From positions 1-64,000 of the forward strand of contig NZ_JAIVFO010000004.1 of assembly GCF_029991245.1 (NCBI RefSeq): a stretch of 64,000 bases of DNA. The letters run 5' to 3'. Both the position numbers and the translations under genes were made by a program. Below, piece after piece: positions 1-41,611 of this stretch (its first letter is position 1; every line of letters begins with the position of its first letter). The DNA comes from Xanthobacter autotrophicus (GTDB taxonomy: Bacteria; Pseudomonadota; Alphaproteobacteria; Rhizobiales; Xanthobacteraceae). The notes below the pieces were generated by a model that made no database searches, was not told the origin of the DNA, and saw only the letters and a list, made by a program, of their open reading frames with translations.

Positions 1-29
1 GGGCTGAGGGGGTGGGAGGAAGCCGCACA

Positions 30-737
30 GTGTCCCACCCGCCCCAAAGCGTTCTTCTGGCGGAGGACGATCAGAACCTCCGCCAGGGCCTCGCCGAGCT
101 TCTGGCGCTGGAGGGCTTCGCCTGTCTTTCCGCGCCCGATGGGGACACGGCGCTGGCGCTTGCTCGCGATCACGCGCCGCTCATCGCCATCGCCATCGTC
201 GATGTCACGATGCCGAAACTGGACGGCTTCGCCCTCTGCCGGAAGATCCGCGAGCATGACCCGGCCCTACCGATTCTGATCCTCTCCGCGCGGGACACGG
301 AGACCGATCGGGTGCTCGGTCTCGAATACGGCGCCGACGATTTTCTGACGAAGCCGTTCGGCGCGCGCGAGCTTCTGGCGCGCATCCGCGCGCTCCTGCG
401 CCGCGCCGCGCTTTCCCCAGCGCGGCCCCCGCCCACGGCCCGTTTCATCCTCGGCGACATCGAGGTGGCGCCGGAGGAACTGCGCGCCTACCGGGGCAAG
501 CGGCGCATCGACCTCACCAAACGCGAGGTGACGCTGCTCAGGATCCTTCACGACCGCAAGGGCCTGGTCGTCTCACGCAACGACCTCTGCGACCTCTGCT
601 GGGGACGGGATTACATGCCGAACAGTCGGGCGGTGGATCAATACATCTCGGCGCTCCGCCGGAAGATCGAGCACGATCCGGCCAACCCGCGGATCGTCCG
701 CACCGTGCACGGGTTCGGCTATCGCTTCGACGGGTAG
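30..737 (+). CDS. OmpR/PhoB-family response regulator
   Basis: A two-domain DNA-binding response regulator. The N-terminal receiver domain has the acidic pair in LAEDDQ, the phospho-acceptor Asp in IVDVTMPKLDG and the conserved Lys in DDFLTKPFG. The C-terminal half is an OmpR-type winged helix ending in RIVRTVHGFGYRF. I chose the GTG at 30 because GGGAGG at 14-19 sits at the right distance; an in-frame GTG at 12 would add six residues. Its histidine kinase is not visible and may lie left of the window. The next gene, on the same strand about 110 bp away, encodes an exported Sel1 protein. The target is unknown. Confidence 0.85.
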   Translation: MSHPPQSVLLAEDDQNLRQGLAELLALEGFACLSAPDGDTALALARDHAPLIAIAIVDVTMPKLDGFALCRKIREHDPALPILILSARDTETDRVLGLEYGADDFLTKPFGARELLARIRALLRRAALSPARPPPTARFILGDIEVAPEELRAYRGKRRIDLTKREVTLLRILHDRKGLVVSRNDLCDLCWGRDYMPNSRAVDQYISALRRKIEHDPANPRIVRTVHGFGYRFDG

Positions 738-1428: not shown

Positions 1429-1589
1429 GGCGGGTCGGCATCGCCGCAGATAACGGCGCCAAGTGTCCTCCCGTCGGCGCCCGAAGGAAAGGTGGGAGGC
1501 GCTCGAGCACTGCGTCGGGGACTTTCCGCAGCGGGAAATGGCCGACGCCCGGCAGAACGTGGTGGCTTTAGGCACCGCTGAGGCCGGCC

Positions 1590-1910
1590 TCAAGCTCGGG
1601 ACGCCGGGTCGGGCTGACACCGGCGCGCTTTCAGTTGGGCGAGACCGACATCCAGGGCAAGATCAGCCGATGCGGCGACGAACTCGCCCGCACGGCGCTC
1701 TATGAGGCGGCGCATACGCTGCTCGTGAGGAGCCAGAAATGGTCGAGCCTGCGGGCGTGGGGAATGAAGATCGCCAGGCATCGCGGCATGGCCCGCGCCC
1801 GCGTCGCGGTCGCCCGCAAGCTCGCCGTCATCCTCCACCGCATGTGGAGCGACGGTTCGCAGTTCCGCTGGGGCAAAGACCCCGCCAATGGAGCCACGGC
1901 CGCTGCATGA
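1590..1910 (+). pseudogene. IS110-family transposase, C-terminal remnant
   Basis: This frame encodes the C-terminal part of an IS110 transposase: GLTPARFQ, GETDIQGKISRCGDE, TALYEAAHTLLVRS and RKLAVILHRMW are family signatures. The N-terminal DEDD domain is missing, so this is a scar. It marks the left side of the monooxygenase block. It differs from the intact IS110 copy near 47 kb, so it is an independent insertion. Confidence 0.8.
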
Positions 1911-2533
1911 CGCCGCAGAGCCGAAACGGGAGGGCCAGACACCACGCATGACCCCGCAAGGGTGAACCGGATCGTTCCCGTGGGGACGATGGGCAAGGCG
2001 ATCTCGTTGAGAGTCCAGAACCTGGGCAAACCCAAGGTCGTGAAACAGATTGAGACGCCTCGCCCTCCTGACCCCATCATGCGGCGGCCCAGCGCCGACC
2101 GCGAAGAGAAGCGTGTGACCCATGGGGCGACACGAGCCGGAGAAGCCAAGACGGGGCGACCAGAACGAGCAGCTTGACCTCAACGACCCCAATCAGAGAA
2201 GGGCTCTTAGCCGGTTCTTCGAGGTGTCCGCCCGGGACGAGAGGTGCGTAACTCGCGGCGCGAAGGATCTGGAAATAAACAAGGTCAACCGAACGAGGCG
2301 TGGCTTGCTTTCACATCCACCTATCTGAGATGGTTTCTGTGGTGGATGTCGCGCTGAGGTCGGAAATGATCCGTTCGAGACGCTCGGTATCGCGAGCGTC
2401 GAGGAAGGCGCAGGCCGTCTGTACCATGGCCGCTTACCGCCTGTTCCGATTCATTCACGTATCTTGCTGCGAACGCGCTGAAACTGTACCTTTAGGCAAT
2501 ATCCGTCAAGGCTCTTTCGTGCAAACTACCAGT

Positions 2534-2553
2534 GCGCAGGGTTCAACCCGCGC
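2534..2553. promoter_or_regulatory. Near-palindrome upstream of mmoX
   Basis: GCGC-A-GGGTT-C-AACCC-GCGC, an inverted repeat broken only by one extra A in the left arm. It lies about 225 bp before the mmoX start and just before an A-rich tract. It could be an operator or activator site. No regulator in the window can be assigned to it. Confidence 0.35.
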
Positions 2554-2573
2554 AAAAAATGGAAAAAAAAGCA

Positions 2574-2593
2574 GCCCTAAACAGATTTAGGGC
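2574..2593. promoter_or_regulatory. Perfect 8-bp inverted repeat upstream of mmoX
   Basis: GCCCTAAA, loop CAGA, TTTAGGGC. Read on the minus strand the hairpin is followed by a run of T (plus-strand A-run at about 2563-2570), which is the layout of an intrinsic terminator for leftward transcription. Read on the plus strand it has no T-run. It may insulate the mmo control region or be a protein-binding site. Confidence 0.45.
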
Positions 2594-2777
2594 GCAGGGA
2601 TGAACGCAAGCTAATTGAGGCGCTCACGGCCGCTCTGATGCGTTAGGGGCCCGCGTAGTGACGCTGGGCGAACTCGCTTGGGCGGTTCCCAGAAGATTCC
2701 GACATGGCGGAAGCAATCGCGCAAGACCGCAGAGCGCGGCCAGCGTGGGTCATAGCAGGGATGCAGGAGGACTAAGA

Positions 2778-4364: not shown

Positions 4365-4373
4365 CGCGGAACT

Positions 4374-4404: not shown

Positions 4405-4429
4405 TCAGATCTGAAGAGAGGAAACCAAG

Positions 4430-5653
4430 ATGAAGCAGGGGCAGTCAATTCGGGCGGCGTTCGAACCCGAGCGGATCATGGAAATCCGGAAAGTTTCGCC
4501 AGCGGAGCCGCTGGAGAAGCAGCGCACAATGAGTTATTATGTCGTGCCGGAAGGCAAGCGGTTGACCGAGTATGAGCAGTTGACGGCCTATGCGCAGCAG
4601 AGCGCCGACTATGCGGGCGGCGGCATTGAGGTCGGTGAGTATCAGCAAAAGCATGCCGGCGGCCGTGGCGCCTATGCGAACGAAACCACGGAGGTCATCA
4701 ATCGCGACTGGTTCAAATTTCGGGATCCCGATCGCCGCTGGTTTTATCCCGCGGTCAAGGCCAAGGCGGAAGATGGGCGCACTGCAGACCGGTTCATGAA
4801 AGCGGCTTCCTCTGAGGGGCTTGTTCGGTTAATCGAACGTGACTGGATTGGTTTCCTCGATGTCGATTTTGGGGCGTTGACTTTTTACGAATACGGTTTG
4901 TTCAACGCGCATTCATCAGCCACGAAAGATTCTATTTCGGATTTCGTAAAGACCTGGGTTGCTCTAACAGCATTTGATAAGAATGACGCTGCGCAGATGG
5001 TGCAGACAGAGCGCGTGTTTCTGAGCAAGCAGATAGAAAACTTCGACGCCGACTTGGTGCGGGCGAAAGAAGTGTGGACCAAGAGCCCGATCTATGCCGG
5101 CATTCGCGAGGCGGTCGAACGCCTTTGGGGCGACACGTATGACTGGGGAGAAATCCTTTGGGCGTCGCATGCGATCATTGATGCTATTTACGGGCAGTTC
5201 GTTCGGCGGGAGTTCTTTCAGAGAATCGCGCCAGCGTATGGCGATAACATCACGCCTTGGTTTCTAAGTCAGGCGAGCGGCTACGCCCAAACCGCCAAGG
5301 GGGGTGTGCGGCGGCTGTTCGGAGACAATCTTGCGAACGATCCCGATTTCGGGTTGCACAACCGGGCGGTGATACGTGCCTGGACTGACAAATGGCTTCC
5401 GGTCACCCTCGCAGGACTTAGAGGATTTGTCGGAATCTATGCTCAACTTCCGAATGCTTCCGAGAAAGTCGCAGGGCGCAGCGTCGTAGAGGAAGGCGTT
5501 GAGCGCGTCATGCAGGATTGGGCGACCGACTTCGCTCACCTGATTGGATACGAGGCGGATGTCGCCGGTTTGGTGGCCGAAGTGATGAGCGGCATGGACC
5601 CAGCGCTGGCGTATCGATCTGACGCTACGAAGTCCATTCAACCTATTTCGTGA
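4430..5653 (+). CDS. mmoY: Soluble monooxygenase hydroxylase, beta subunit
   Basis: Structural subunit of the hydroxylase (alpha-beta-gamma dimer); it has the ferritin-like fold without the iron site. It is 407 residues, slightly longer than M. capsulatus MmoY (389). Recognised by order and by motifs such as NRDWFKFRDPDRRWFYP and DTYDWGEILWASHAIID. A purine-rich AGAGGA lies just upstream of the ATG. It is 65 bp from mmoX, with the strong hairpin in the gap. Confidence 0.95.
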   Translation: MKQGQSIRAAFEPERIMEIRKVSPAEPLEKQRTMSYYVVPEGKRLTEYEQLTAYAQQSADYAGGGIEVGEYQQKHAGGRGAYANETTEVINRDWFKFRDPDRRWFYPAVKAKAEDGRTADRFMKAASSEGLVRLIERDWIGFLDVDFGALTFYEYGLFNAHSSATKDSISDFVKTWVALTAFDKNDAAQMVQTERVFLSKQIENFDADLVRAKEVWTKSPIYAGIREAVERLWGDTYDWGEILWASHAIIDAIYGQFVRREFFQRIAPAYGDNITPWFLSQASGYAQTAKGGVRRLFGDNLANDPDFGLHNRAVIRAWTDKWLPVTLAGLRGFVGIYAQLPNASEKVAGRSVVEEGVERVMQDWATDFAHLIGYEADVAGLVAEVMSGMDPALAYRSDATKSIQPIS

Positions 5654-5677: not shown

Positions 5678-6082
5678 ATGAGCGGACGTGGATCGAGCGA
5701 GGGCCTGAACTCTAAAAATGGGCAGGCGTTTATCGACGAATTCCTTGATGAAAAAAACATGACCGTCAAGGAATCGCGTGATGTTGTACTTGTTCTAATG
5801 AAAAGTGAGGAAATGGAAGTCGTCGTCGACGACATCATCCTTGGGGAGCAAAAGAAGTCGAATCCATCAATCGTGGTGGAAGATCACGCTAGTTACTACT
5901 GGATCAAAGCCGATGGGCAAATTGTCATTGATGTAGATATAGTGGCGGATATCATGGGGCGATCGTACAATGTTTACGACTTCCTGGTAAACGTGTCCTC
6001 GACCGTTGGTCGAGCATTCATTACCGGTAACGTGTTCACGCTGACGACGGAGCTTGTCGGGCTCGATGAAGCGTTGGTATAG
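5678..6082 (+). CDS. mmoB: Monooxygenase coupling/regulatory protein B
   Basis: Cofactor-free effector that binds the hydroxylase and controls oxygen and substrate access. It is 134 residues against about 141 in M. capsulatus; the difference is at the flexible N-terminus, which matters for activity in known MmoB. Family motifs: VVLVLMKSEE, NPSIVVEDHASYYWIKADG and NVSSTVGRAF. It lies 24 bp after mmoY in the same operon. Confidence 0.95.
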   Translation: MSGRGSSEGLNSKNGQAFIDEFLDEKNMTVKESRDVVLVLMKSEEMEVVVDDIILGEQKKSNPSIVVEDHASYYWIKADGQIVIDVDIVADIMGRSYNVYDFLVNVSSTVGRAFITGNVFTLTTELVGLDEALV

Positions 6083-6095: not shown

Positions 6096-6665
6096 ATGGC
6101 GTTCACGAACCACTGCCTACGCGACGGAGACCGCAGTCTATACGACAATGATACGCGTCGTAGCTGGCGGGACCGCATCGCAGGGCTCAGCAATCTCGAC
6201 GAAGCGGTAGCGCTTTTGACGGAGATCCGCACCAAGCACGTCGGGACCGAGCGCGAGACGTACGATTTGGAGTACGACTCATTGTGGATCGAAGCGGAGG
6301 CCGAAAGGCGCGTCGCTTCGCTCAAAAGCGAGAAATTTCACGGTAAGGATTTGCTCGACAGGTGCGTGTGTGGCGCTGCGGCGGCAGATGTTTACCGTGA
6401 TTTGCGCCACCGCATTGACGCCGCTGGCGAATGTCAATTCACGCTAGAAGGTTTGGCTGCGGAATTTCGACGCAAGTTCAAACCTCCTGTGATGCCGGTC
6501 AACGCATGGCTCGAACTCGACAGCTACTTAAGCAAGCGGTTGCTCGAGACCAGGGCGAAGGTCGCGGATATCTCGGCCATCGACGTCGCCGAATGGCGCG
6601 CCAAGCGAGGCTTTCGTGTGCTTGTCGAGGGGCACGGGAACGCGATGACGGGTGAAACGACCTGA
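6096..6665 (+). CDS. mmoZ: Soluble monooxygenase hydroxylase, gamma subunit
   Basis: Small helical subunit of the hydroxylase, 189 residues (170 in M. capsulatus). Recognised by position and by NDTRRSWRDRIAGLSNLDEA, YDLEYDSLWIEAEAERRV, FKPPVMPVNAWLE and the C-terminal RAKRGFRVL. The ATG at 6096 has GGGAAGGAAAC before it. An in-frame ATG at 6054 inside mmoB would add 14 residues that do not look like the family. Confidence 0.93.
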   Translation: MAFTNHCLRDGDRSLYDNDTRRSWRDRIAGLSNLDEAVALLTEIRTKHVGTERETYDLEYDSLWIEAEAERRVASLKSEKFHGKDLLDRCVCGAAAADVYRDLRHRIDAAGECQFTLEGLAAEFRRKFKPPVMPVNAWLELDSYLSKRLLETRAKVADISAIDVAEWRAKRGFRVLVEGHGNAMTGETT

Positions 6666-6952: not shown

Positions 6953-7993
6953 ATGCACCTGATTAGAGCGACGCTTGAGGACGGAGAGCACTTGCAATTC
7001 GAGTGCGATGACGCCGAGGACGTCCTTTCCGCGGCGTTGCGGAACAATATCATTCTGCTCTCGGAGTGCCACAAAGGGATTTGTACGACCTGCCGAGTGC
7101 ATTGTTCAGATGGCGAATTTGAGTTGGGCAGAGGTGTAAGTGTTTATTCTTTGCCGCCTGAAGATCAAGACGAGGGCTTTACATTACTTTGTCAGACGTA
7201 TCCGCGGTCGGATCTGGAAATTCAACTACCATACGGACTCGACCGCGTTTCGTTCGGCACGTCCCGGATCGAGGAGATCTACGAGGCAAGAATCGCGGTG
7301 ATCGAGCGGTTCACGGAACATGTGGTCTCAATTTTCTTGGAACTGCGAGACGAGTTTGGCAAGCCTCGCGATTTTCGCTGGACTCCAGGGCAATATATAA
7401 AGCTCCGAGTACCGGGAACTGGCGAGTGGCGCAGTTATTCGATGGCCAATATCCCTGACGGAAGTGGGCGAGTCGAATTGATGGTGCGTTTGCTTGAGGA
7501 CGGCGTCTTTTCCAATTACCTTCGAGAAAGAGTGAAGGTCGGGCAAGTCGTAGAGATAAAGGGTCCCTACGGAGAGTTTCAGGTCCACGCCAGTGTGAGT
7601 CCGCGCTACTTCGTCGGCGGCAGCACCGGTTTGGCTCCCCTGGTTTCCATGCTCAGAGGGATGGCCGAAGCCAACGATCCAGCACCCTGCAGACTGATTT
7701 TTGGGATGCGCAGCCAGGAATTCTTCTTTTACGCGAAGGAACTGGCGGCCCTGGCTGGGGCTCTGCCAGCGCTGTCGCTTGAACTTTCGCTCGAAACGCC
7801 GGATCCGGAATGGACTGGCCGCGTCGGTAACGTAGGCGAGGTGTTGTCGGTAATACTCAATGAAACTGGGGAAAAGCCCGATATTTACGTGTGCGGACCG
7901 GGACCGATGGTTCGGTTCGTAGAGGAGATTTGTCACGCTCGCGGAGTGCGGTCGGACCGTGTGTTCAGCGAGAAATTCTTGGCGTCAGGCTAA
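6953..7993 (+). CDS. mmoC: Monooxygenase reductase (2Fe-2S / FAD / NADH)
   Basis: Passes electrons from NADH to the hydroxylase. It is 346 residues (348 in M. capsulatus). The N-terminal plant-type ferredoxin domain has the cluster cysteines in CHKGICTTC and LLC. The flavin domain has RSYSMAN, and the NAD domain has GGSTGLAPLVSML and CGPGPMV. The ATG at 6953 follows GGGGGAA. The next gene starts immediately after its TAA. Confidence 0.96.
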   Translation: MHLIRATLEDGEHLQFECDDAEDVLSAALRNNIILLSECHKGICTTCRVHCSDGEFELGRGVSVYSLPPEDQDEGFTLLCQTYPRSDLEIQLPYGLDRVSFGTSRIEEIYEARIAVIERFTEHVVSIFLELRDEFGKPRDFRWTPGQYIKLRVPGTGEWRSYSMANIPDGSGRVELMVRLLEDGVFSNYLRERVKVGQVVEIKGPYGEFQVHASVSPRYFVGGSTGLAPLVSMLRGMAEANDPAPCRLIFGMRSQEFFFYAKELAALAGALPALSLELSLETPDPEWTGRVGNVGEVLSVILNETGEKPDIYVCGPGPMVRFVEEICHARGVRSDRVFSEKFLASG

Positions 7994-8296
7994 ATGAGAC
8001 GCGTAGGCCCCCTTCAGAACTCTACGGCAAGCAATTTCATGCGGGAAGTCGCGTGCGCGCTGGATGAGTCGCTGCGCGAAACCCGCGAGACGCAGGATCG
8101 TCTGGCGGCCGCGATAGGCGAGCAGAGGGTTGAGGAGCTACGAGAATACTGGCTTTCCGAACCGGACAGCGACGCAACTGCGGCTTTCCTTCAAAGAGCT
8201 GCCTACCGGGAAAGGCAGCTTGTGGCGGTCTGGGCCAAGCTCCGTAGGCTCGAGCATCTGAGGGTTGCGGCGGGGCGGGGAGTCATGAAAAGTTAG
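7994..8296 (+). CDS. Small unrecognised protein, paralogue of the next gene
   Basis: 100 residues, charged, with no signal peptide or membrane segment; predicted mostly helical. Its ATG directly follows the mmoC stop, so it is almost certainly co-translated with the reductase. It is homologous to the protein at 8358-8744: a conserved block AAYRERQLVAVWAKLRRLEHLRVAAGR matches ATYRERDLVNLWSRLERLAAMRAKAGR there, and the N-terminal FMREVACALDES matches FLKDLAISFDDA. I do not know any equivalent in described sMMO operons. A role in assembly or regulation of the monooxygenase is inferred only from position. Confidence 0.75.
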   Translation: MRRVGPLQNSTASNFMREVACALDESLRETRETQDRLAAAIGEQRVEELREYWLSEPDSDATAAFLQRAAYRERQLVAVWAKLRRLEHLRVAAGRGVMKS

Positions 8297-8357: not shown

Positions 8358-8744
8358 ATGCGATACGAAACGAAAGACAGGGAAGCAGAGCCGAGGAACG
8401 ATAGAGAGGTGCGATGTTTTCTAAAGGACCTCGCGATTTCGTTCGACGACGCATGGAATAGTCTTCAGCGAAGAGAAGTAGAGTTGAAGAGCTGCCTCGG
8501 AGTCGATCGCGTCAGCGAACTTTGGAAGTTGAGGACCACTGAGCGCCGAGGAACGGAAGAGATCAACGAGCTATTGTCGGGCGCCACATATCGCGAACGC
8601 GATCTAGTGAATCTATGGAGCAGGCTGGAACGACTTGCGGCGATGCGGGCAAAAGCTGGACGAACCTCCCTCGTCATGTGCAGCGTTGATAGTGGGGAAG
8701 CTATCGCGCCGAGACTTCTCAGTGCAGAGGGGCCACGACCTTGA
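8358..8744 (+). CDS. Small unrecognised protein, paralogue of the preceding gene
   Basis: 128 residues, soluble and helical. It shares the YRER-x-LV-x-x-W-x-x-L-x-RL core with its neighbour at 7994-8296 and has a longer, unrelated C-terminal tail. It overlaps the mmoG start by 4 bases (TTGA), so it belongs to the operon. The pair looks like a tandem duplication followed by divergence. I do not recognise the family. Confidence 0.75.
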   Translation: MRYETKDREAEPRNDREVRCFLKDLAISFDDAWNSLQRREVELKSCLGVDRVSELWKLRTTERRGTEEINELLSGATYRERDLVNLWSRLERLAAMRAKAGRTSLVMCSVDSGEAIAPRLLSAEGPRP

Positions 8745-10399
8745 GCAGCATCGTATGTTATAACTCGGCAGCTTCGCGGGCGCTTTTGGGGGGGATGGGC
8801 GATCTTGCCAAAGCGGCAGCGAGTTCCCTCGGCCCGTGTGGGCGCACCGTTCTCATAGAGCACGTTGGTAAGCTGACCCCCAATGTTGTTAAGGATGGCT
8901 CGGCGATCTGCCGTGCAATCGAATATCGGGAGCCGGAAAAAGAGGTCGGGCGCAAATTGCTCGCGCTGCTTGGGAAGGAAATTGAACGCGATTTTGGCGA
9001 TGGAGTTAGCGGAACGCTTGTCGCGACGGCCGCGGTTCTTGAAGCCGTAGTTCGGGCTCTCGCAGCTTATGTTGAGCCTAAATCGATTGTCGAAGGATTG
9101 CGGCTAGGCGTTGAAGATGCACGTGCTGCGCTAGAAGATTTGCGGCGACCGGTGACCGTAGATCGTATCAGGAGGATTCTCCCGAACGCGGTCTTTAGCG
9201 AAGGGGCAATTGCAGTTCTCGTCAGCGACGCCTTCCGCGAGGTCGGTGCCGAAGGAGATGTTCGCGCAGAGATTGCCGATACCATCGAAGATAGTCTGGA
9301 GATTGTTCAGGGCGCCCGCTACGAAAAGGGGTATCTGTCGTCGGCTTTTGTTACCGACAAGAGGAGCATGCGCGTCGAGTTTGACGCTCCGCTGGTGTTG
9401 CTGACTGACCGGGTGCTGGACGACTTTGGGGCGATTGCACCAGCGTTAGCGGTGGCGGCCGAGAAGGAACGGCCTATTGTGGTGGTTGCGGGGGGATTTG
9501 ATGAAAACGTGCGGGCAGGTCTAATCATGAACAATGCCCGCGGGCGCGTTCGCTGTGCAGCGGTGCAGGCGCCTGCCTACGGCGAGACGCTGAGCGACTT
9601 CGTGGCCGATCTTGCAGTGTTGACGGGGGCTCGGGCGTTTCTTGAGGGACGAGGTGACTCGTTAGCCACGCTTGTCGCCGGCGATCTTGGTGGGTGCGAG
9701 CGAATCTTTATCGATGAAAGGTCCACTCTGATTCGAGGGGGTCAAGGGAGCGAAGAGGCTCTGCGTCAGCGCATCCACGAAGTACGCGCACAACTCGCTT
9801 TCCACGAACACAAGACCAAATCGTTCACCTCCAAGATGGGTTTGCAGGAAACAGCAGGAGATAGGATCAGGTTTCTTCAAGGAAAGTACGCGGAGATTTC
9901 CATCGGCGGGCGTAATGACCTTACAATTAAATACAGACTTGCGTTGGCAAACAAGGCAATCGGCGTGACACGCGTGTTGCTGCGAGGGGGAGCAGTTCCA
10001 GGAGGAGGTACAGGACTATCGGTAGCGGCCCGTAGACTTCGGGACCGGGCTCGAATATCGGTCGATCCGGGCGTCAAGAGCGGGTTATTGGCGCTTGCAG
10101 AAGGTTTGGCTAAACCGCAAAAAGTGATTCTGCGAAATGCTGGCGGCGAGACGGCGGGGGGCGAGTCGCTTGGACGCTGGTCCGGACTTCCTTGGGCTGG
10201 AATCGATGCGACAACGGGCAATGAAGTTGATCTATGGGCGGCTGGAATTGCCGATCCTTTTGAACTCGCGATCAAGGTCGTAGATTGCGCTGCAAGCCTC
10301 GCCGAGATGATTTGTCGGACAGGAGCGCTGCTCGTCAAGTCGCCGGTGGATATCGGGTTCTCGCCGGAAGAGGCGGCAGCCACCCGGGAGGTAATGTAG
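8741..10399 (+). CDS. mmoG: Divergent GroEL-like chaperonin
   Basis: A 552-residue chaperonin of the MmoG type, needed for sMMO expression or assembly in known methanotrophs. GroEL landmarks remain: LGPCGRTVLIE, VVKDGSAI, GYLSSAFVTD and PGGGTGLSVA. The ATPase site is unusual. By alignment to E. coli GroEL, Asp52 becomes Glu, the GDGTTTAT loop becomes GDGVSGTL (Asp87 kept), and Asp398 becomes Lys405 (LANKAIGVTR). The start is a TTG overlapping the previous stop, with AGAGGGG upstream. No co-chaperonin gene is adjacent. It may bind hydroxylase subunits without a normal ATP cycle. Confidence 0.9.
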   Translation: MSSIVCYNSAASRALLGGMGDLAKAAASSLGPCGRTVLIEHVGKLTPNVVKDGSAICRAIEYREPEKEVGRKLLALLGKEIERDFGDGVSGTLVATAAVLEAVVRALAAYVEPKSIVEGLRLGVEDARAALEDLRRPVTVDRIRRILPNAVFSEGAIAVLVSDAFREVGAEGDVRAEIADTIEDSLEIVQGARYEKGYLSSAFVTDKRSMRVEFDAPLVLLTDRVLDDFGAIAPALAVAAEKERPIVVVAGGFDENVRAGLIMNNARGRVRCAAVQAPAYGETLSDFVADLAVLTGARAFLEGRGDSLATLVAGDLGGCERIFIDERSTLIRGGQGSEEALRQRIHEVRAQLAFHEHKTKSFTSKMGLQETAGDRIRFLQGKYAEISIGGRNDLTIKYRLALANKAIGVTRVLLRGGAVPGGGTGLSVAARRLRDRARISVDPGVKSGLLALAEGLAKPQKVILRNAGGETAGGESLGRWSGLPWAGIDATTGNEVDLWAAGIADPFELAIKVVDCAASLAEMICRTGALLVKSPVDIGFSPEEAAATREVM

Positions 10400-10496: not shown

Positions 10497-12014
<1,518 letters not shown>

Positions 12015-12191: not shown

Positions 12192-12572
12192 ATGACCGAC
12201 AAGATCGATCTAGAGCTGGTGACGGCCACCGATACTGCCCGCGCGCTGATCCGCGAGCTTAAGGTGCAGCACGGCCCTTTGATGTTTCATCAGTCAGGTG
12301 GCTGCTGCGACGGCTCTTCGCCCATGTGCTACCCGCGCGGCGATTTCATCGTCGGTGATCGGGATGTGCTCTTGGGCGAGATTGATGGTACGCCTGTCTA
12401 TATTGGGGGCGACCAATTTGAGAGTTGGCGTCACACGCAGCTCATCATCGACGTCGTCCCAGGTCGAGGCGGCATGTTTTCACTCGATAACGGTACAGAG
12501 AGACGTTTTCTGGCCCGTTCGCGAACCTTTTCCGGAGACGAGATGTGTAGGGTCGATCGCGTCTCGAGATGA
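12192..12572 (+). CDS. DUF779 protein (aldehyde-dehydrogenase partner)
   Basis: 126 residues, DUF779 family, regularly found next to acetaldehyde-type ALDH genes as here. Conserved features: HQSGGCCDGSSPMCYP, rich in Cys and likely metal- or thiol-active, and GDQFESWRHTQLIIDV. A GGAG lies just before the ATG. The molecular function is not established. Its presence supports the acetaldehyde-type reading of the upstream gene. Confidence 0.9.
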   Translation: MTDKIDLELVTATDTARALIRELKVQHGPLMFHQSGGCCDGSSPMCYPRGDFIVGDRDVLLGEIDGTPVYIGGDQFESWRHTQLIIDVVPGRGGMFSLDNGTERRFLARSRTFSGDEMCRVDRVSR

Positions 12573-33328: not shown

Positions 33329-34342
33329 TTATTCATCTTCTCCATGATGCCGGTGTGGGTCGAAATAGACCTCCGTCACCCGAAAGCGCCCACCTATTCG
33401 CTTACACTGAACGATGACGTCGATTGCTATCTTCAGCAGATCCCGGATATCGCCGCGCTCCAGGTCGCGGCCGCCGTCGGATTCTTTGACGAGCAGGGTG
33501 AGCTGCTCAAACGCGAGCCGCGTTGAATTCGCGTGCACCGTCGTGATCGAGCCCGGATGGCCGGAATTCACGTTGCGGATGTAATAGAACGCCGTTCCGT
33601 CTCGAAGCTCCTGGAGCAGGACGCGGTCCGGACGCATGCGCAGCGAAGCCTCGAGGAGCTCCTTCGGGCCGACCTTTGCGAGTCCCTGGTCATCCTTGGA
33701 ATAGAACAGCCGTACGTGATTATCCTGAGGGATCACGAGCTCTCGTGTGTCCTCGATCGTAATGAGGCGCTCGTCCTCCGGGATTTGTTGGATCAATGCC
33801 TTTGAGAGCGTCGTCTTGCCCGACCCCGTCGCTCCCGAGATGATGATGTTCTTCCGGGCAAGAACAGCCTCCCGGAGGAAGGCCATGTAGCTTCCGGCCT
33901 GGTAGAGGCCGAGCAGCCGCACGTCGGTGGGGGAGAGCTCGTCGGCTAGCGGGCTAACCTCCGAGAAGAGGCCCCCTGTTTCTAGATCGCTGAGCGTCAG
34001 CGTCACCGCCGAGGGGTTGCGGAGCGTGATGCTCACCGTGCCCTTCGTGGTGGCGGGCGGAATGACGATCTGGATGCGGTGTTCGTCTGGCAGCGTGGCG
34101 GACAAGAGTGGGTGGGCCTCGTCGATGGCCTGGTGCGAGTAGCTGGCGACGGCGCGCGCAAGGCGCATCAGCTTTTCGAAGGTGAGTGCCGGCGCGTCGT
34201 GCGTGCGCCATCCACCGGGACCCTCAGTCATCACTACGCCTGGGCGATTGATCACGATCTCATAAAGCGACTCGTCCTTCAGAAAGTGCCCGAGGGGAGA
34301 GAGCAGCTCACGGACAACGCCGACGTCGGCGGCATCGCTCAT
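33329..34342 (-). CDS. virB11: VirB11 ATPase of the type IV secretion system
   Basis: 337 residues. Cytoplasmic hexameric ATPase that drives pilus and DNA transfer. N-terminal domain (YEIVINRPGVVMTEG) and C-terminal RecA-like domain with Walker A GATGSGKTTLSKAL, Asp box TIEDTREL, LLQELRDGTAFYYI and HANSTRLAFEQL. Start at 34342 with GAGGGGAGGGG upstream. It is the last gene of the virB operon, 13 bp after virB10. Confidence 0.95.
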   Translation of the reverse strand: MSDAADVGVVRELLSPLGHFLKDESLYEIVINRPGVVMTEGPGGWRTHDAPALTFEKLMRLARAVASYSHQAIDEAHPLLSATLPDEHRIQIVIPPATTKGTVSITLRNPSAVTLTLSDLETGGLFSEVSPLADELSPTDVRLLGLYQAGSYMAFLREAVLARKNIIISGATGSGKTTLSKALIQQIPEDERLITIEDTRELVIPQDNHVRLFYSKDDQGLAKVGPKELLEASLRMRPDRVLLQELRDGTAFYYIRNVNSGHPGSITTVHANSTRLAFEQLTLLVKESDGGRDLERGDIRDLLKIAIDVIVQCKRIGGRFRVTEVYFDPHRHHGEDE

Positions 34343-34355
34343 CCCCTCCCCTCGC

Positions 34356-35528
34356 CTATTTCGTGACCAGCGTGGAGCGGCGACTGAAGTCTCCGAGCAC
34401 GCCGCGATCGTAGATCGTGTTGCGAGGCTCGGTGACGCGCAGGCCGTAGACGCTGGAGAAGTCGAGGTCGCGGGCGACGAAGATGGAGACCATCTCGCCC
34501 TGGTGCTTCTCCAGCGTCGGCGGAATGTTGATGGACTGCTCGACGGCGATGGCGGCCGCCTGCTGGCCGGCATTTGCGCTGTTCTGCACCTGAATGTCCC
34601 CCTGCTGGAGCTGGCCCTGTGCGTAGTTGGCGGCGTCGCCGACAATTGAAAGCAGCAGGGCGCTGCCGAAGCGCTCCCACCAATGGGTGTCGACATAGCC
34701 GTCCATGCCGGCCCGGCCCAAAGCGTCGGTCGCGGGCGAGGCGAGCGTGATGATGATGCCCTTCGGGGTCTTGGCCCGATTCCACAGCACGAAGAGGCGA
34801 GCCTGTCCCCGGCGCAGGCCGCCGCGATACTCTCCGATGACCTGTGTGCCCTTCTCCATCAGCACGACGCGGCTGTTGTCCGACAGCACGTCGCGATTGA
34901 TGACGCAGCTGGCGAAGCCCGGCTGGTCAGAGGATAGGGCGGTCTCCAGGATGCAGGGGATCGACGTGCCCATGGCGATGATGAAGTCTCGATTTCCCAG
35001 CGTGCCGGCGCGTGACCCTTCGAGGCGTGTCGGCGTCATCATCCGGCCGAAGCGCTGGTCCTCGTTCTCGCCGGGACCGTTGAAGCTGCCGCGAGCGGCA
35101 TTTGGCGGCACATAGCTGGTGCTGGCGTCGGCCGGAACGCCGGCAGTTTGTGGCCGATTCTGTGAGCCGCGCTGTGCGCCGAACGCCATCACCGGGGCGC
35201 GACGGGCGGCATCGAGCATCGGATCCTCCGGCGGGGCAGATTGCGGTGCGACGACTGGTGTCGGCAACTTCACCTCCGGCGCGGTTGCGGGCGGGGGTGC
35301 GGGCTGACGGGCTGGCTCGAAATCCGTCGTCTGCCGGATGACGACACGCTCCGGCTTCTCGGCGTCCGTCGGCGGTCCTCGATCTCGCATCGACCACATG
35401 GCAAAGGCGACGAATGCGATGACGGCCAGCACCACGGCGCCGCGCTTTAGCAGCGGATTATCCTGCCGCCGGCCGGTGACTGCCTGCCCTCGCTCTCCCG
35501 GCACGCCGTTATCAATTTCGTCCGCCAT
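34356..35528 (-). CDS. virB10: VirB10 channel protein
   Basis: 390 residues. Short cytoplasmic N-terminus, one membrane helix (residues about 28-45), a Pro-rich periplasmic linker (PAPPPATAPEVKLPTPV) and the C-terminal TrbI-like barrel domain (GTSIPCILETALSSDQPG, VGEY-like VIGEYRGGLRRGQARLFVLW, DGYVDTHWWERFGSALLLS). VirB10 spans both membranes and gates the core complex. Confidence 0.95.
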   Translation of the reverse strand: MADEIDNGVPGERGQAVTGRRQDNPLLKRGAVVLAVIAFVAFAMWSMRDRGPPTDAEKPERVVIRQTTDFEPARQPAPPPATAPEVKLPTPVVAPQSAPPEDPMLDAARRAPVMAFGAQRGSQNRPQTAGVPADASTSYVPPNAARGSFNGPGENEDQRFGRMMTPTRLEGSRAGTLGNRDFIIAMGTSIPCILETALSSDQPGFASCVINRDVLSDNSRVVLMEKGTQVIGEYRGGLRRGQARLFVLWNRAKTPKGIIITLASPATDALGRAGMDGYVDTHWWERFGSALLLSIVGDAANYAQGQLQQGDIQVQNSANAGQQAAAIAVEQSINIPPTLEKHQGEMVSIFVARDLDFSSVYGLRVTEPRNTIYDRGVLGDFSRRSTLVTK

Positions 35529-35537
35529 CGCCAGCCC

Positions 35538-36398
35538 CTATTGCGCTCTGGGCGCCGCTTGTGGCTTCACAACCCGCTCAACCGAGGGAGAGGTCGTGTT
35601 GGTACCCGGGTTGATCCCGACCTGGTCATAGGCCTCGTTGAAGATGCAGAGCACGTCGCCACCGCGTCGCAGGATGAACTTGCGGCTGATGGCCTGGACG
35701 AGCACTAGGTCACCCTCGACCGATTTCGGCACGAGGCTCTCGGTCCCGTCCGAGCTCTCCATGTAGATCGCCGGCATCTCCTGATTGCCGGTGAAGGCAA
35801 AGGTCGTGAGCTTGCCGTTGTCGTAGACCGCTTCGGGCTCGAGGGCGGGGGAGCCCTGCGCCGAATAGCGCCAGTTTCGCGGGCCATATTGCTCGTGGAA
35901 GGTGAGCACCTTGTCGGCATAACCGGCCTGGGCTGCCTGTGCCCGCGCGGCTGCGTCCCGGCGCCTGCGCTCCGCATCGTCGGCCGGATAGCGGAATTTC
36001 ACATAGAAATAGGTGGGCTGACCCGAGGCGACCGAGCCGTCGCGCACCGTGAGCTCCATTTGATAGCTGCGCGTTGCCCCATTGCGCCGCGTTGTCACCA
36101 CCGAGATGTTGGTCACGGGTTGGTTCTCGCGCGGCTTCAGGAACAGGATGTTCCCGGCGGGCGCGACCTCCCAGGCGACCGTATTGCCGAGCGCCACATG
36201 GGCGATCTCCTCGTCCTCGGCGAACTCCACCTGAACCGAAGAGCGCAGCGAGCCCACGATCCTGGTGATGTTGTAGGGCTCGTAATCAACGAATCGAACC
36301 CGGTTGTCCTGAGGCGCGCTGGAGGGCGTCTCGAGCGCTTGTGCGGCTGAGGCGAGGCACACCGAGACCACTGCGGCGAAGAGTACGGCGCGCTTCAA
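35538..36398 (-). CDS. virB9: VirB9 outer-membrane core protein
   Basis: 286 residues with a signal peptide (VLFAAVVSVCLASAAQA). VirB9/TrbG motifs: YNITRIVGSLRSSVQVEF, GNTVAWEVAPAGNILFLKP and PAIYMESSDGTESLVP. The start appears to be a TTG at 36398 with GGAGG seven bases upstream; it overlaps the virB8 stop. Confidence 0.93.
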   Translation of the reverse strand: MKRAVLFAAVVSVCLASAAQALETPSSAPQDNRVRFVDYEPYNITRIVGSLRSSVQVEFAEDEEIAHVALGNTVAWEVAPAGNILFLKPRENQPVTNISVVTTRRNGATRSYQMELTVRDGSVASGQPTYFYVKFRYPADDAERRRRDAAARAQAAQAGYADKVLTFHEQYGPRNWRYSAQGSPALEPEAVYDNGKLTTFAFTGNQEMPAIYMESSDGTESLVPKSVEGDLVLVQAISRKFILRRGGDVLCIFNEAYDQVGINPGTNTTSPSVERVVKPQAAPRAQ

Positions 36399-37069
36399 TT
36401 GATGGCCTCCGGATCGGCCCGGTATTCGCTCACGACGAACCCGAGGGGATTGACCAGGCGATCCGTCGAGGACATGGGCGCGTTGACATAGGCGAAGGTC
36501 AGCGTCGCCACCCAATGGGTGGTGCGCACATCCTCTCCGCGGGTGACCGTGCGGATGTAGCGGACCGACACCACATGCGGATTGATCAACGAGATCGAGA
36601 CGATGTTGACCCGGGCGGTGGCCTTGCGCCCATAGATATTCTGCGGCGATTCCGGGTTGCTCCCGCGGTAAAGTGCGGCGAAGCGCTGCTGCTCCGCCTG
36701 GGTGGACAGCAGGGAAGCGGTGCGGAAGTTTTCTTCCGCCTCGCTCCAGACATAGGCTTCCCGTGCCCGGACGTATCGCGCCGCGAAGTATTTGGTGACG
36801 GCCTCGTCGTAGGCTCCCGCCGTCGAGGTCAGCGCCGAGACCACATCCACGATGCCCGTGGAATTGTCGACCCGGACAACGAAGGGCTGAACGGTCTTCA
36901 GCGGGGTCAGGCCGGCGACCGCGAAGACCGCGGCCGCCGCCAGGATACTGGCACAGATCGCCACGAACCAGGCGACCCGTGCCGACCGCTCCGCTCGGAT
37001 CATCCGGTCCTGATCGAACCGCCGCGCCTTCTCAAAATAGCTTTTGAGGCTGTCGTTGGTCACCATCAT
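36395..37069 (-). CDS. virB8: VirB8 inner-membrane assembly factor
   Basis: About 224 residues. One N-terminal membrane helix (VAWFVAICASILAAAAVFAVAG) and the periplasmic VirB8 domain (VVRVDNSTGIVDVV, YFAARYVRAREAYVW, YRGSNPESPQ). The ATG at 37069 overlaps the virB7 stop by 4 bases (ATGA). Confidence 0.93.
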   Translation of the reverse strand: MMVTNDSLKSYFEKARRFDQDRMIRAERSARVAWFVAICASILAAAAVFAVAGLTPLKTVQPFVVRVDNSTGIVDVVSALTSTAGAYDEAVTKYFAARYVRAREAYVWSEAEENFRTASLLSTQAEQQRFAALYRGSNPESPQNIYGRKATARVNIVSISLINPHVVSVRYIRTVTRGEDVRTTHWVATLTFAYVNAPMSSTDRLVNPLGFVVSEYRADPEAIN

Positions 37070-37347
37070 CCCCGCCCCGTGCAAGATCGGTAGGAACCTG
37101 CGACGTCAAGATACGCAAACGGACCAGGCGGCGATGTCGGCCGCTCATCGGCAAATGCCGTTGCACGGCTCGGCACCAGAGGCGCAGCGTCAGATTGCGC
37201 CTTCACACCGGCGCTGCCCTCCCACTGCCACATGGCGCGGTTGAGCGGCCGGCGTGCGTAGCCGTCGCACTTGGGCAAGGGATAGGACAGCGATGCGCAT
37301 CCGCTGAGAACCGACGCCACGCAAAGCAACAGGGACATACGCAACAT
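37066..37347 (-). CDS. virB7: VirB7-like lipoprotein
   Basis: 93 residues with a lipoprotein signal ending in the lipobox LSGC (Cys at about residue 17). Position between virB6 and virB8 identifies it as VirB7, which anchors and stabilises VirB9. Longer than Agrobacterium VirB7 (55). Confidence 0.8.
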   Translation of the reverse strand: MLRMSLLLCVASVLSGCASLSYPLPKCDGYARRPLNRAMWQWEGSAGVKAQSDAAPLVPSRATAFADERPTSPPGPFAYLDVAGSYRSCTGRG

Positions 37348-37386
37348 GCACCACCCGCCTTTGAATTCTGCTCTCAGGAAACGGCG

Positions 37387-38319
37387 TCAGCCGGCTCCGC
37401 CCGATCGGAAGCTGCGCCCCGCGGCGCGGAAGCCTCGGCCGACGGCGCGGGCCGCATACCTGGTGCTTCGGGCGACCGTGCCTTCATGCGCATCGCGCGC
37501 GGCGCCATAGCCGTAGGTCAGCGACGCCCCACCCGCGGCAAGCGCGGACGCGATCCCGGGCAGTTGGTAAAAGACGTAGAGGGCGGAAAGCGCGATGGCG
37601 CCGAGCGCGATCGGCCGCATCAGCACGTCGGCATACGAGTCCATGGTGGCGAACGTGGCATCCAGGCAGGTCACCAGCAGCGACCCCACGGCGATGACGA
37701 GGACCTGCAGGATGACGAAGTTTGCCATCTGGCCGATCCACGCCTCGGTGAACCGGCGGGTCGACTGGAACATGGCCAGGACGACGAAGATCGGACCTAT
37801 GGCCAGGACGATCGCGAGCGCGACCCGGGCATAGAGCGACACCACATATCCGATTGCCGCGACGACGAAGGTCATGACGATGACCACCAGCCCGGCCGCG
37901 CCGGTCAGGACGTCGACGGGCCAAGACCCTTTCGCCCAGATGTCGTTCGCTGATTTCTGGCCCTTGTCGAGCAGGGAATCGAAGGCAGAGGCGCTCGGCG
38001 CCGACCCGGTGTTGAGAGCCCCGGAGATCTCGGTGGGCAGGTCCTCGAAGAACACCTTCGTGACATAGGTCTGATAGTTCGATGCGTTCTGCACGAGCAT
38101 CAGGATGATGGCGAGCTTCATCGCCCGGAACGCGAACTCCATGATGGGCTCGGGGATTGAGCCGCGCAGGACGAGGAAGCCGTAGATGACGACGTAGAGC
38201 GTCAGAGCGACGGTCAGCGGCCCAGTTACCCAGGACGCGATGCCCGAAGTCCCCGAGCTGATGAAGTTCTCGAGCGGGGCCTTGAACTGGTCGTCGAGGA
38301 ACGAGAAGACCTGGTACAT
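37387..38319 (-). CDS. virB6: VirB6 polytopic channel protein
   Basis: 310 residues, TrbL/VirB6 family, with at least five membrane helices in the middle (residues about 30-50, 60-80, 140-160, 170-195, 205-225 and 235-255) and the family motif of a large periplasmic loop. Forms the inner-membrane part of the transfer channel. Confidence 0.92.
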   Translation of the reverse strand: MYQVFSFLDDQFKAPLENFISSGTSGIASWVTGPLTVALTLYVVIYGFLVLRGSIPEPIMEFAFRAMKLAIILMLVQNASNYQTYVTKVFFEDLPTEISGALNTGSAPSASAFDSLLDKGQKSANDIWAKGSWPVDVLTGAAGLVVIVMTFVVAAIGYVVSLYARVALAIVLAIGPIFVVLAMFQSTRRFTEAWIGQMANFVILQVLVIAVGSLLVTCLDATFATMDSYADVLMRPIALGAIALSALYVFYQLPGIASALAAGGASLTYGYGAARDAHEGTVARSTRYAARAVGRGFRAAGRSFRSGGAG

Positions 38320-38322
38320 GCC

Positions 38323-38556
38323 CTACCCTCCGAGCGCCTTGTTCATCCGCTGGAGGCGGGCTTTGCCGTCGGCTTCGGTCGCATTCTCGCAGTTCGGCGT
38401 CTCGGCGAGCGCGCCAGGATTCTCCCGGCACTTCGCCAGCTGCGCGGCGCGCAGCGCCTCGTCGCCGAGGTAATCACTGACGGTGCGGGTCCCCTCCCCC
38501 GGCTCAAAGCACCCGGCGAGAGGAAGCAACAGGAACAGGGCCACGATCCTCCTCAT
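38323..38556 (-). CDS. EexN-like entry-exclusion lipoprotein
   Basis: 77 residues: a lipoprotein signal with LLPLAGC, then TVSDYLGDEALRAAQLAKC and NPGALAETPNCENATEADG. The two conserved Cys and the small size match EexN/TrbK-type exclusion lipoproteins, which stop cells from receiving a plasmid they already hold. Lies between virB5 and virB6 as in IncN/IncW-like operons. Confidence 0.75.
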   Translation of the reverse strand: MRRIVALFLLLPLAGCFEPGEGTRTVSDYLGDEALRAAQLAKCRENPGALAETPNCENATEADGKARLQRMNKALGG

Positions 38557-39248
38557 GGCAGCGCCGCCCTCATCGTATCGACGCGCCGGCGCCAGTCCTC
38601 GGCCTTGCGCTGGTCGTCCACCTGTGCCTGGGCCTGCTGCACCATGCGCAGGCCCTGCATGCGCACCACATCGATCTGAAGGAACGCCGCCTCCGCCTGG
38701 AGCCTAGCCTGCAGGTCGGCCACGTCCTTCGAGGTGCCGGCCGAGGAGATCTGCTGCCGGAGCTGATCGATTCCGTCGATCCGCTTCGTGGCGGCATCGT
38801 AAATCTGCTGGCCAAGGCTCATCTGGCCGGCGTTCTTGTTCTGGATCCGGGACAGCTCCTGTGCGTAGAAATCGTTCGCGCTGGTCTGATAGGTGGAATT
38901 GGACTGCAGGAACTTCGAGGCGGACTCGCCGAAGGCGCCTGAGCCCGCACCGCTCAGCAGGCTTTCGATCGCATTAAAATCCTGGGGAAGCGCCTTGCGG
39001 ATCGAGGGGTCGTTGAGCACGCTCGCGACGTCCGCCATGTTCGTCAGCTTGTTCAACGAGCCGTAGAGCTGCTGCGCCTGCTGAAGCTGCTGGTTCAAAG
39101 TGTCGAGCTGGGATTTGAGTTGCGCAATGCTCTCCAGCTGCTTGGCAAGGGCGGCTTGGTCGATCACGGGGATGCCCTGCGCATCGGCCGCGCCGGCGGA
39201 GATACAGAGCGCGGCCGTGGCCGCCAGCAGCATGGTGCGTGTGGACAT
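38553..39248 (-). CDS. virB5: VirB5 minor pilin
   Basis: 231 residues with a signal peptide (MLLAATAALCISAGAADA). Long amphipathic, coiled-coil helices (ESIAQLKSQLDTLNQQLQQA) and the VirB5/TrbJ C-terminal pattern (LQARLQAEAAFLQIDVVRMQ). A tip adhesin of the pilus. The ATG at 39248 overlaps the virB4 stop by one base; open frame upstream is not coding. Confidence 0.9.
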   Translation of the reverse strand: MSTRTMLLAATAALCISAGAADAQGIPVIDQAALAKQLESIAQLKSQLDTLNQQLQQAQQLYGSLNKLTNMADVASVLNDPSIRKALPQDFNAIESLLSGAGSGAFGESASKFLQSNSTYQTSANDFYAQELSRIQNKNAGQMSLGQQIYDAATKRIDGIDQLRQQISSAGTSKDVADLQARLQAEAAFLQIDVVRMQGLRMVQQAQAQVDDQRKAEDWRRRVDTMRAALP

Positions 39249-41611
39249 CAGCCGGCACTCCTTCTTTGCTGGAACAGGGAGAGCCAGGTCTCGCTGCTGC
39301 CGCCCTCGGCGCGGATCGCGTCGGCCAGTTCCACATTGGCGGTGCGGCCGGAAAGGATGGCGAGCTCGTCGTCGAAGCCGGTGAGGTTCAGCTCGGCGAC
39401 GACGCTGTTGTGCCCCTGTTTGACGATGAAGCGGCGGCTCTCCGGGGACAGTTCGCGCGCGACGAGCTGATATTCCCGCTCGGTGAGATTGAAGCCATCC
39501 ACGTAGTCGACATGACTGCCGCGTGGGTTCGGCATGAAGATCTGCGTGGGGCATTGTTCGATAATGGTGTGGGCGATCGGCGAGGCGATGGCGTCGCGCG
39601 GGCTCTGTGTCGCGAACAGCATGAGACCGCCCTGCTTCCGGATGGTCTTGAGCTTGTTCTGGGCGAGATCGCGGAAGCCCTCGTCGAGCAGCGCCTTCCA
39701 GAATTCATCGATGACGATGATGATGCGGCGGCCGTCAATCAACTGCTCCACCCGGTGGAACAGGTAGGCCATGAGTGGCGTGCGGATCTCCTCGTTATCG
39801 AGGAAATCCGTCATGTCGTAGCCGAGGAACTTGGCGCCGATGCCGATGTCGTCGGTCTCATTGTCGAAGACCCAGCCGAGGGGCCCTCCCCTCTCCCAAC
39901 GCCGCAGCCGGGCGGCAATGCCCTCCGGGTCGGTGTTGTTGAGGAAGGTGCGCAACGCGCCGATGGTGCGCCGCTGGACCGGGAGGTCCGCGAGGCCGTC
40001 GACGGCGCCGGCGATGTCGCGTAGGTCGCTCACGGAAAGCTCACGCGACTTCGAACCGACAAGCTTGGCGATCCATTGCGCCAGGAACACCTTGTTCTCC
40101 GGTGTAAGCTGGAGCCCCTTCAGCGGCGCGCAGCCGGTCGGCACACCATTCTTCAGCGGCAGATACGTGCCACCGGCGGCCCGCACGAAAAGGTCGGCGC
40201 CACGGTCCTTGTCGAAGAACACCATGTGGGGATCGTGCTTCTCGAGCTGCGAGAGCATGAAGTTCAGGATGACGGTCTTGCCGGATCCAGAGGGGCCGCA
40301 CACGAAGGTGTTGCCGAGATCACCATGGTGGAAGTTGAAATAGAACGGCGAGCCCGAGGCCGTCTTCAGCATCGCGACGGCCGGTCCCCACTCGTTGCCT
40401 TCCTTCCTGCCCACCGGATAGGAATGAAAGGGTGACAGCGCAGCGAAGTTGCGCGACGTGATCGCGCCGGAGCGGGCTCGATAGCGGAAGTTGCCCGGCA
40501 ACTGTGCCCACCAGGCTGCTTCGAGCCCGAGGTCCTCGCGCGCCACAACGGCACCGCCGTTGGTCAGATGAGAGCGTGCCTTCGCCAGATTGTCGGTGAG
40601 GTCCTTCACCGAGGGGGCGAAGACCGACAGCGTTAGGTGATGCTCGCCCAGCACGAAGCGATTGGATTCCAGATCGTCCAGCGCGCCATCGAGTTCTTCG
40701 ACCTGCGAACTCGCCTTGTCGCCGGCGCTCACCATCTGGTTTTGCTTGCGTCCGAGAATGATCCGGGCATCGGCCTTCGAGGCGAAAGCGAAGGACTGCG
40801 TCAGGATAAGCTCGAACGGCGTGGTCAGGATGCCGGCGAGCATGCCGGGCCTCGTCCGTGCGGGATATTCCTTGAAGCTGAACACACCCGCATAGCGGGT
40901 CTCGGCCTCGTGGCGGATCTCCACCGTCTCACGCCCGATGATGACGCGGTCGGAATAGATCGCGGATGAAACCCGTCCCTCCGTGAGGGGCACCCGCTCC
41001 CGCCGGCCTCCGATGATCTGGTGCAGCACCTCGCTCGGCTCTGAAAACAGCAGGCCGTCGTGCTCGTAGAGAGAAAGGACCCGCGGCTGGAAACGCTTGA
41101 GGCCGGCGGTCACGTCGGTGACCTTGTCGTGGAGCTGCTTCAGCGCTTCTTCGTCGAGCTCCCGTCCCGCCCTGCGCGCCCTGCGAAGGCGGGACAGGAG
41201 CTTCGTCATCTTCTCAGCGGGATCGCGGGTTGGATGCCAGAGCAAGGTCAGATAGAGGTCGTTGCGAAACAGGTCCTCCTCCACCATGCGGGCGCGATAT
41301 TTTGCGTTCAGGGTCGCGGAGAAGGGATTGGCGAACGCTCCATCGGGATAGTCGTTGTCGCGGCGGCGGATGATGTGGGTCCACAGCGCAAGGCGTTCGT
41401 CGGCGAGATTGCGGTAGAGGGTGTTGAGATCGCGGTGAAGATCGTTGAGGTCGAGCGGATCGGCGGTCTCGAACGACACGCCGTCGAGGGCAATCATGAC
41501 CATCATCGCTCGGGAATCGAGCGCGATCGTCGTCTCGTCCACGTGGCGGACATACGGGATAAAGGTTTCGGGCTCGAGCTCCCGGGCTTTGACGATGGCG
41601 ACGCTAGGCAA
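39248..41611 (-). CDS. virB4: VirB4 ATPase of the type IV secretion system
   Basis: 787 residues, the largest secretion gene. CagE/TrbE N-terminal domain (EPETFIPYVRHVDETTIALDS) and the C-terminal ATPase with Walker A FVCGPSGSGKTVILNFM, Walker B RIIIVIDEFWKAL and FATQSPRDAI. Energises pilus assembly at the inner membrane. Overlaps virB3 by 8 bases. Confidence 0.96.
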   Translation of the reverse strand: MPSVAIVKARELEPETFIPYVRHVDETTIALDSRAMMVMIALDGVSFETADPLDLNDLHRDLNTLYRNLADERLALWTHIIRRRDNDYPDGAFANPFSATLNAKYRARMVEEDLFRNDLYLTLLWHPTRDPAEKMTKLLSRLRRARRAGRELDEEALKQLHDKVTDVTAGLKRFQPRVLSLYEHDGLLFSEPSEVLHQIIGGRRERVPLTEGRVSSAIYSDRVIIGRETVEIRHEAETRYAGVFSFKEYPARTRPGMLAGILTTPFELILTQSFAFASKADARIILGRKQNQMVSAGDKASSQVEELDGALDDLESNRFVLGEHHLTLSVFAPSVKDLTDNLAKARSHLTNGGAVVAREDLGLEAAWWAQLPGNFRYRARSGAITSRNFAALSPFHSYPVGRKEGNEWGPAVAMLKTASGSPFYFNFHHGDLGNTFVCGPSGSGKTVILNFMLSQLEKHDPHMVFFDKDRGADLFVRAAGGTYLPLKNGVPTGCAPLKGLQLTPENKVFLAQWIAKLVGSKSRELSVSDLRDIAGAVDGLADLPVQRRTIGALRTFLNNTDPEGIAARLRRWERGGPLGWVFDNETDDIGIGAKFLGYDMTDFLDNEEIRTPLMAYLFHRVEQLIDGRRIIIVIDEFWKALLDEGFRDLAQNKLKTIRKQGGLMLFATQSPRDAIASPIAHTIIEQCPTQIFMPNPRGSHVDYVDGFNLTEREYQLVARELSPESRRFIVKQGHNSVVAELNLTGFDDELAILSGRTANVELADAIRAEGGSSETWLSLFQQRRSAG

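Follow-up and report, generated by a model that had tools for sequence, protein, structure and literature searches.

A bmo-like monooxygenase cluster on a plasmid-like contig of Xanthobacter autotrophicus, with neither a good sigma-54 site nor MmoR in view

The di-iron monooxygenase genes near the start of the window (the whole 64,000-nucleotide stretch analysed here, bases 1-64000 of the 73,412-bp contig C433 in a 4.96-Mb genome of 495 contigs, G000) had been read as an mmoX-led sMMO operon whose regulation might have been rewired on a plasmid. By sequence comparison, positions 2778-10399 are shown to encode instead a bmo-like group 3 soluble di-iron monooxygenase, belonging to a sister lineage of sMMO. 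On balance, we favour the reading that this is a selected, mobile cluster carried on a plasmid and transcribed without sigma-54 from a promoter in its leader, the missing circuit being common to it and to a Methylocella copy. The observation behind the original prediction is therefore confirmed, and its interpretation partly supported. The features discussed are collected in Table 1.

Table 1. Features of the window, with positions, strands and the evidence for each.
Feature	Position	Strand	Basis
OmpR-type response regulator, first gene on contig	12..737	+	Pfam PF00072 and PF00486
Truncated IS110-family element (ISMno22-like): transposase end and 3' non-coding tail	1609..2210	+	88% nt to Methylobacterium nodulans plasmids
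Leader between IS110 tail and bmoX, 567 bp	2211..2777	+	no match in 72,556 plasmid records
Inverted repeat, 9-nt arms, 19-nt spacer; candidate operator	2313..2349		repeat scan
Inverted repeat, 8-nt arms, 6-nt spacer; candidate operator	2379..2400		repeat scan
Best sigma-70-like pair TTGCTG-17-TACCTT, weak	2464..2492	+	P=0.22 against shuffles
Near-palindrome, 10 pairs, one bulged base	2533..2554		126/1000 shuffles hold one
Intrinsic-terminator-like leftward hairpin, perfect 8-bp stem, loop of 4, eight T in tail	2574..2593	-	0/1000 shuffles
bmoX-like hydroxylase alpha subunit (originally mmoX), 528 aa	2778..4364	+	96.2% aa to L030; tree; dN/dS 0.025
bmoY-like hydroxylase beta subunit	4430..5653	+	PF02332; 84.7% aa to L030
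bmoB-like coupling protein	5678..6082	+	88.7% aa to L030
bmoZ-like gamma subunit	6096..6665	+	85.1% aa to L030
bmoD-like small gene, 81 codons	6697..6942	+	open frame; 78.8% aa over 80 residues to L030
bmoC-like reductase	6953..7993	+	Fer2/FAD/NAD domains; 80% aa to L030; ATG start inferred, frame open from TTG 6899
Small orf after bmoC, also in Methylocella copy	7994..8293	+	74.7% aa to L030; no Pfam family
Second small orf, diverged relative of the 7994-8293 orf	8358..8744	+	32% aa to same L030 orf
bmoG-like (GroEL-like) chaperonin	8741..10399	+	PF00118; 39% aa to Methylocella copy
Aldehyde dehydrogenase (start inferred)	10497..12014	+	82% aa to chromosomal paralogue
DUF779 protein	12192..12572	+	domain match
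Conjugative type IV secretion genes (T2SSE/VirB11-type, TrbI, CagX, T4SS, CagE/TrbE/VirB families)	33329..41611	-	family matches
repABC replication and partition genes	51159..54839	+	domain matches

The mmoX label given to the first gene of the cluster is not borne out. The closest relative found for its product is that of Methylocella tundrae isolate 2 (locus L030, contig C92 of genome G061), whereas its identity to full-length canonical MmoX proteins, including the two canonical copies in that same Methylocella genome, is 66-69% (72% to the partial row L083). In a tree of 34 alpha subunits, whose 26 canonical rows are alphaproteobacterial (gammaproteobacterial rows were left out), the window and L030 pair at 100/100 outside the 26-row sMMO clade (100/99), and the nearest canonical row lies at a path distance of 0.57 from them. 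Seven PDB MmoX-type sequences score 832-849 bits against the window protein, none being clearly nearer than the others. Nothing else near 96% came out of searches in the phylum (1 of 398, which is the window itself), the order (3 of 397, its own included) and relatives (7 of 198). Genome G185 holds an mmoX-like cluster of a third kind, ordered X, Y, B, Z, C, small orf, G (L096, contig C2:100000-119000, X at 12386-13978 on the minus strand); its X is 67% identical to the window X and branches before both the bmo-like and the canonical sMMO rows, a TetR-type gene lies upstream, and neither a convincing MmoR match by tblastn in its 19 kb nor a -24/-12 site was found.

These relationships are in line with published descriptions of Methylocella. 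For strain PC4, PMC6778391 describes, beside two sMMO operons, a bmoXYBZDCG cluster resembling the Thauera butane monooxygenase and without bmoR, so that a bmo-like cluster lacking bmoR is already in print; the extra bmo-like cluster is ascribed to both PC1 and PC4 in PMC6778391 and PMC7660913, and the former states that neither strain grew on butane. With two canonical copies and one bmo-like copy in its genome, we infer from the same accounts that L030 is the bmo-like cluster of PC4. It resembles the window in gene order and in protein identity from X (96%) to D (79%), as well as in having neither an MmoR match nor a good -24/-12 site, and differs from it in upstream DNA and in bmoG. According to PMC7660913, the Methylocella bmo-like sequences and those of Sphingobium SCG-1 make up a small subgroup, to which the bmoXYBZDC of Thauera butanivorans, also a group 3, sMMO-related system, is joined at a greater distance. 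Rhodoblastus PC2 and PC3 have bmoXYBZDCG as well, and those strains also hold other di-iron monooxygenases. The canonical operon, mmoXYBZDC with mmoR and mmoG, shares its subunit genes and a GroEL-like gene with the window. The enzymes of the bmo-like sister group are thought to oxidise larger gas alkanes.

The cluster bears marks of both selection and recombination. Relative to L030, dN/dS is 0.05-0.13 for Y, B, Z and C (X is lower still; Table 1), which shows at the level of codons that these five structural genes have been under purifying selection after their separation from the Methylocella copy. The small orf has a value of 0.19 and bmoG one of 0.26. Because bmoG is so much more diverged from L030 (39%) than X, Y, B, Z, D and C are (79-96%), the cluster is probably a mosaic with a junction near 8290, and this pattern in 8290-10399, with a diverged duplicate of the small orf at the junction, suggests recombination. 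An OmpW gene follows the DUF779 gene downstream.

The replicon looks like a plasmid, as originally supposed, since repABC and type IV secretion genes are present on the contig. A 24.9-kb query from the transfer region matches the 316-kb plasmid of Xanthobacter autotrophicus Py2 at 87.5% nucleotide identity over 44% of its length. The first 20 kb of the window are 99.9% identical in nucleotides (20 differences) to the 23,339-bp contig C76 of Xanthobacter autotrophicus AM3 (G008), and among the 14 genus genomes examined, our own included, these two hold the full-length match, the remaining matches being distant (E 3e-15 to 5e-23). AM3 has, in addition, a more distant di-iron monooxygenase (L024, G008:C74; 26% to the query), and the contig of genome G062 that matches the L024 contig in number and length holds two sigma-54 activators. 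Within the window, two more pairs of histidine kinase and OmpR-type regulator genes were noted at 14026-16960 and 29033-31062, one of them beside a piece of an E1-E2 ATPase and the other near PepSY/flavodoxin reductase genes at 25875-28793.

We scanned for sigma-54 sites using a matrix with our own weights around the consensus string quoted in PMC5874634 (maximum score 20.8). The best -24/-12 site in the 500 bp before the bmoX start codon scores 0.8 (P=1.0 against shuffles). A first scan of 1911-2777 with local base composition gave a best score of 5.9 (P=0.55), and over 1-2777 the plus strand reaches no more than 8.8 (position 2232, 546 bp ahead of bmoX), which is at chance level (shuffle mean 9.4, s.d. 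1.8). The original statement that no obvious sigma-54 site precedes the cluster thus holds. On the minus strand, a site scoring 12.8 at 1888 lies inside the IS110 remnant and is directed away from bmoX; elsewhere in the window, one plus-strand site reaches 13.5, at 45121, a long way from bmo. In the first 14 kb, bmoC, bmoG and bmoX contain internal sites scoring 10.0, 9.6 and 9.4, respectively, so values of 9.4-10.0 arise by chance and mean little without position. The matrix works in this genome, in which rpoN is present, since it gives a score of 18.0 to a predicted near-consensus site about 50 bp before the inferred start of the chromosomal aldehyde dehydrogenase gene (L098, G000:C60, 5439-9201), from which the sigma-54 activator L006 is divergently placed. 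The best score upstream of the plasmid aldehyde dehydrogenase gene is 6.4; with bmoX, the plasmid cluster therefore has two genes without an element that is present in relatives.

In all 26 canonical mmoX loci (23 genomes), by contrast, a site scoring 9.4-18.8 was found at -48 to -224, whereas three loci outside the sMMO clade fall below the cut-off (the window, L030 at 7.8 and L096 at 3.5), a comparison of 26/26 with 0/3 that does not amount to 29 independent events, as the cut-off of 9.4 was set post hoc and the loci are related, two of the three closely. In the first set of 25 loci, one (L067, the G185 cluster) had no site, and five Methylocella-type sites (9.4-9.8) are singly not significant against shuffles (P 0.06-0.16), though their positions nearly coincide (-127 to -131). 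A homologue of MmoR (47-100% over 673-718 aa) lies within about 10 kb at 24 of the 26 canonical loci, the other two, L113 (2.9 kb visible upstream) and L115, being second copies in genomes G104 and G262. Both of these (G104:C35 and G262:C5:3563000-3582900) have a -24/-12 site, and in the DNA examined around them neither MmoR nor MmoG has a match; the other mmoX copy of each genome has both MmoR and MmoG. Site plus MmoR at canonical loci against neither at the three loci outside the clade is a strong pattern, which should not be read as a probability.

That no mmoR or NtrC-type activator gene lies in the 64 kb was also correct, and it extends to the whole of C433, on which no PF00158 domain was found. 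The genome has 14 matches to this family, ten of them strong, all on other contigs, and tblastn with MmoR gave no match in the window or in L093. Aligned with two Methylocella MmoR proteins, the ten strong activators reach at best 34% identity over 594-598 aa (L006), followed by 30% over about 700 aa (L007); for the remaining eight the alignment is limited to the ATPase/C-terminal part and spans at most 376 aa. A search of the rest of the genome for mmoR, proposed with the original prediction, thus found none that is MmoR-like. Three of the ten (L010 entered as a fragment) pass NCBIfam equivalog cut-offs, as NifA, NtrC and NtrX, and the other seven pass none among the best 25 listed. Each of the ten is matched in AM3 by a counterpart of 78-98% amino-acid identity, and they look chromosomal, because the plasmid stretch common to the two strains is 99.9% identical in nucleotides.

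The control region had been drawn as 1911-2777. About a third of it, 1911-2210, is the tail of the IS110 element, and 2211-2777 stands as the true leader. One of the Methylobacterium nodulans plasmid copies of the element is annotated as ISMno22 family, and further partial IS110 copies occur in G000, G008 and G185; the leader itself has no match in 72,556 plasmid records. Its perfect inverted repeats number three, where shuffles average 0.14 (P=0.003); a density of at least three recurs in 5 of 112 equal tiles of the window and compares with none upstream of L030 and 0-2 in the 25 upstream regions of the control set. GC content is lower within 2400-2649 (50-56% in 100-bp steps) than within 1900-2299 (60-68%). 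The hairpin with a leftward T-run was rightly noted and makes a convincing predicted intrinsic terminator; a general terminator scan also finds it, with two weaker minus-strand matches (3 against a shuffle mean of 1.5). The letters of the near-palindrome are likewise present, and as an operator we rejected it, since at least nine pairs appear in 126 of 1000 dinucleotide shuffles.

Several other regulatory candidates were rejected. A structured 5' leader RNA has a z-score of 0.04 (minus-strand leader -1.17, with 25 of 200 shuffles folding as well), and for an antisense RNA ending at the leftward terminator the best minus-strand promoter pair is at P=0.26, no similar pair being among the top three of L030. 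An Rfam search of 1-14200 gave five matches, all under the gathering scores of their families. The response regulator at 12-737 has no counterpart by tblastn on the Methylocella bmo-like contig, which L095 and L030 cover, so what speaks for it as a bmo regulator is its position. A strict scan of the leader for sigma-70 promoters found none, and no convincing one emerged overall; the search for both promoter classes, as originally suggested, has upheld the absence of a sigma-54 site and yielded no sigma-70 promoter, the best pair being weak.

In the favoured reading, the bmo cluster would need no sigma-54 for its transcription, which a housekeeping-type sigma factor would start at a promoter lying in the leader, most likely in its GC-poorer part at about 2450-2650. 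Expression may be constitutive, or it may depend on a repressor or activator that acts on the inverted repeats of the leader, and antisense transcription would be kept out of the leader by the leftward terminator. Promoter class, any operator role and antisense shielding are what we infer. The absence of MmoR and of a -24/-12 site fits the bmo-like lineage, because the Methylocella copy is without both. Against this reading stand the weakness of the best sigma-70-like pair, the empty strict scan, the repeat-rich tiles elsewhere in the window and the lack of such repeats in L030, together with the fact that bmo of Thauera butanivorans, the characterised relative, has a sigma-54 promoter and depends on BmoR (PMC8784404 and PMC8899819), neither element being seen in the window with 2.8 kb visible upstream.

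It is unlikely, in our estimate, that the cluster is instead silent or leaky cargo, cut off from its own promoter by an IS110 insertion or deletion and read only from upstream, or hardly transcribed. The IS110 remnant does end 567 bp before bmoX, the leader has no good promoter of either class, and similarity to the DNA upstream of the Methylocella copy is confined to the last ~53 bp before the start codon. The selection on X, Y, B, Z and C argues against such a state, as does the lack of a good sigma-54 site in the Methylocella copy despite its different upstream DNA; that the cluster is intact in two genus genomes with 20 differences in 20 kb speaks the same way, showing recent sharing only.

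Less probable again is a hidden sigma-54 control, with bmoR beyond the end of the contig and a promoter that is atypical or further upstream. The bmoR of T. butanivorans lies some 10 kb upstream. In this genome, as in AM3, the contig starts 2.8 kb before bmoX, so that synteny leaves room for a bmoR further up the plasmid; rpoN and ten strong activators are also at hand in the genome. However, the last 500 bp hold no site, the best plus-strand score in the 2.8 kb is at chance level, none of the ten activators looks plasmid-borne, and, with 40 of the 104 candidates scored, no other contig was found to hold the first 150 bases, C10 having a match of 39 bases. As for the original proposal, in which a true sMMO operon came to the plasmid and then had its sigma-54/MmoR control rewired, it has the mmo-like gene order XYBZDC...G and the IS element upstream in its favour, and we regard it as very improbable, given the distance from full-length canonical MmoX, the position outside the sMMO clade and a closest relative that is the bmo-like third copy of a Methylocella with two canonical ones (PMC7660913).

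In a literature search that had most subscription journals outside its coverage, we found no paper on a bmo-like cluster on a Xanthobacter plasmid. The mmoX label is here insufficient to make a Xanthobacter-type strain a methanotroph, a likely misreading that is now corrected, and the gene set of a gas-alkane oxidiser appears the better reading of these genes. More tentatively, a mobile, sigma-54-free branch of group 3 might pass from one alphaproteobacterium to another as a structural cassette, acquiring promoter and regulator wherever it lands, unlike sMMO, in which the -24/-12 site and MmoR would travel with the genes. The contrast between canonical loci and those outside the clade opens to test how a gas-alkane oxidiser may be switched on without sigma-54, and whether carriage on plasmids may spread alkane oxidation among non-methanotrophs.
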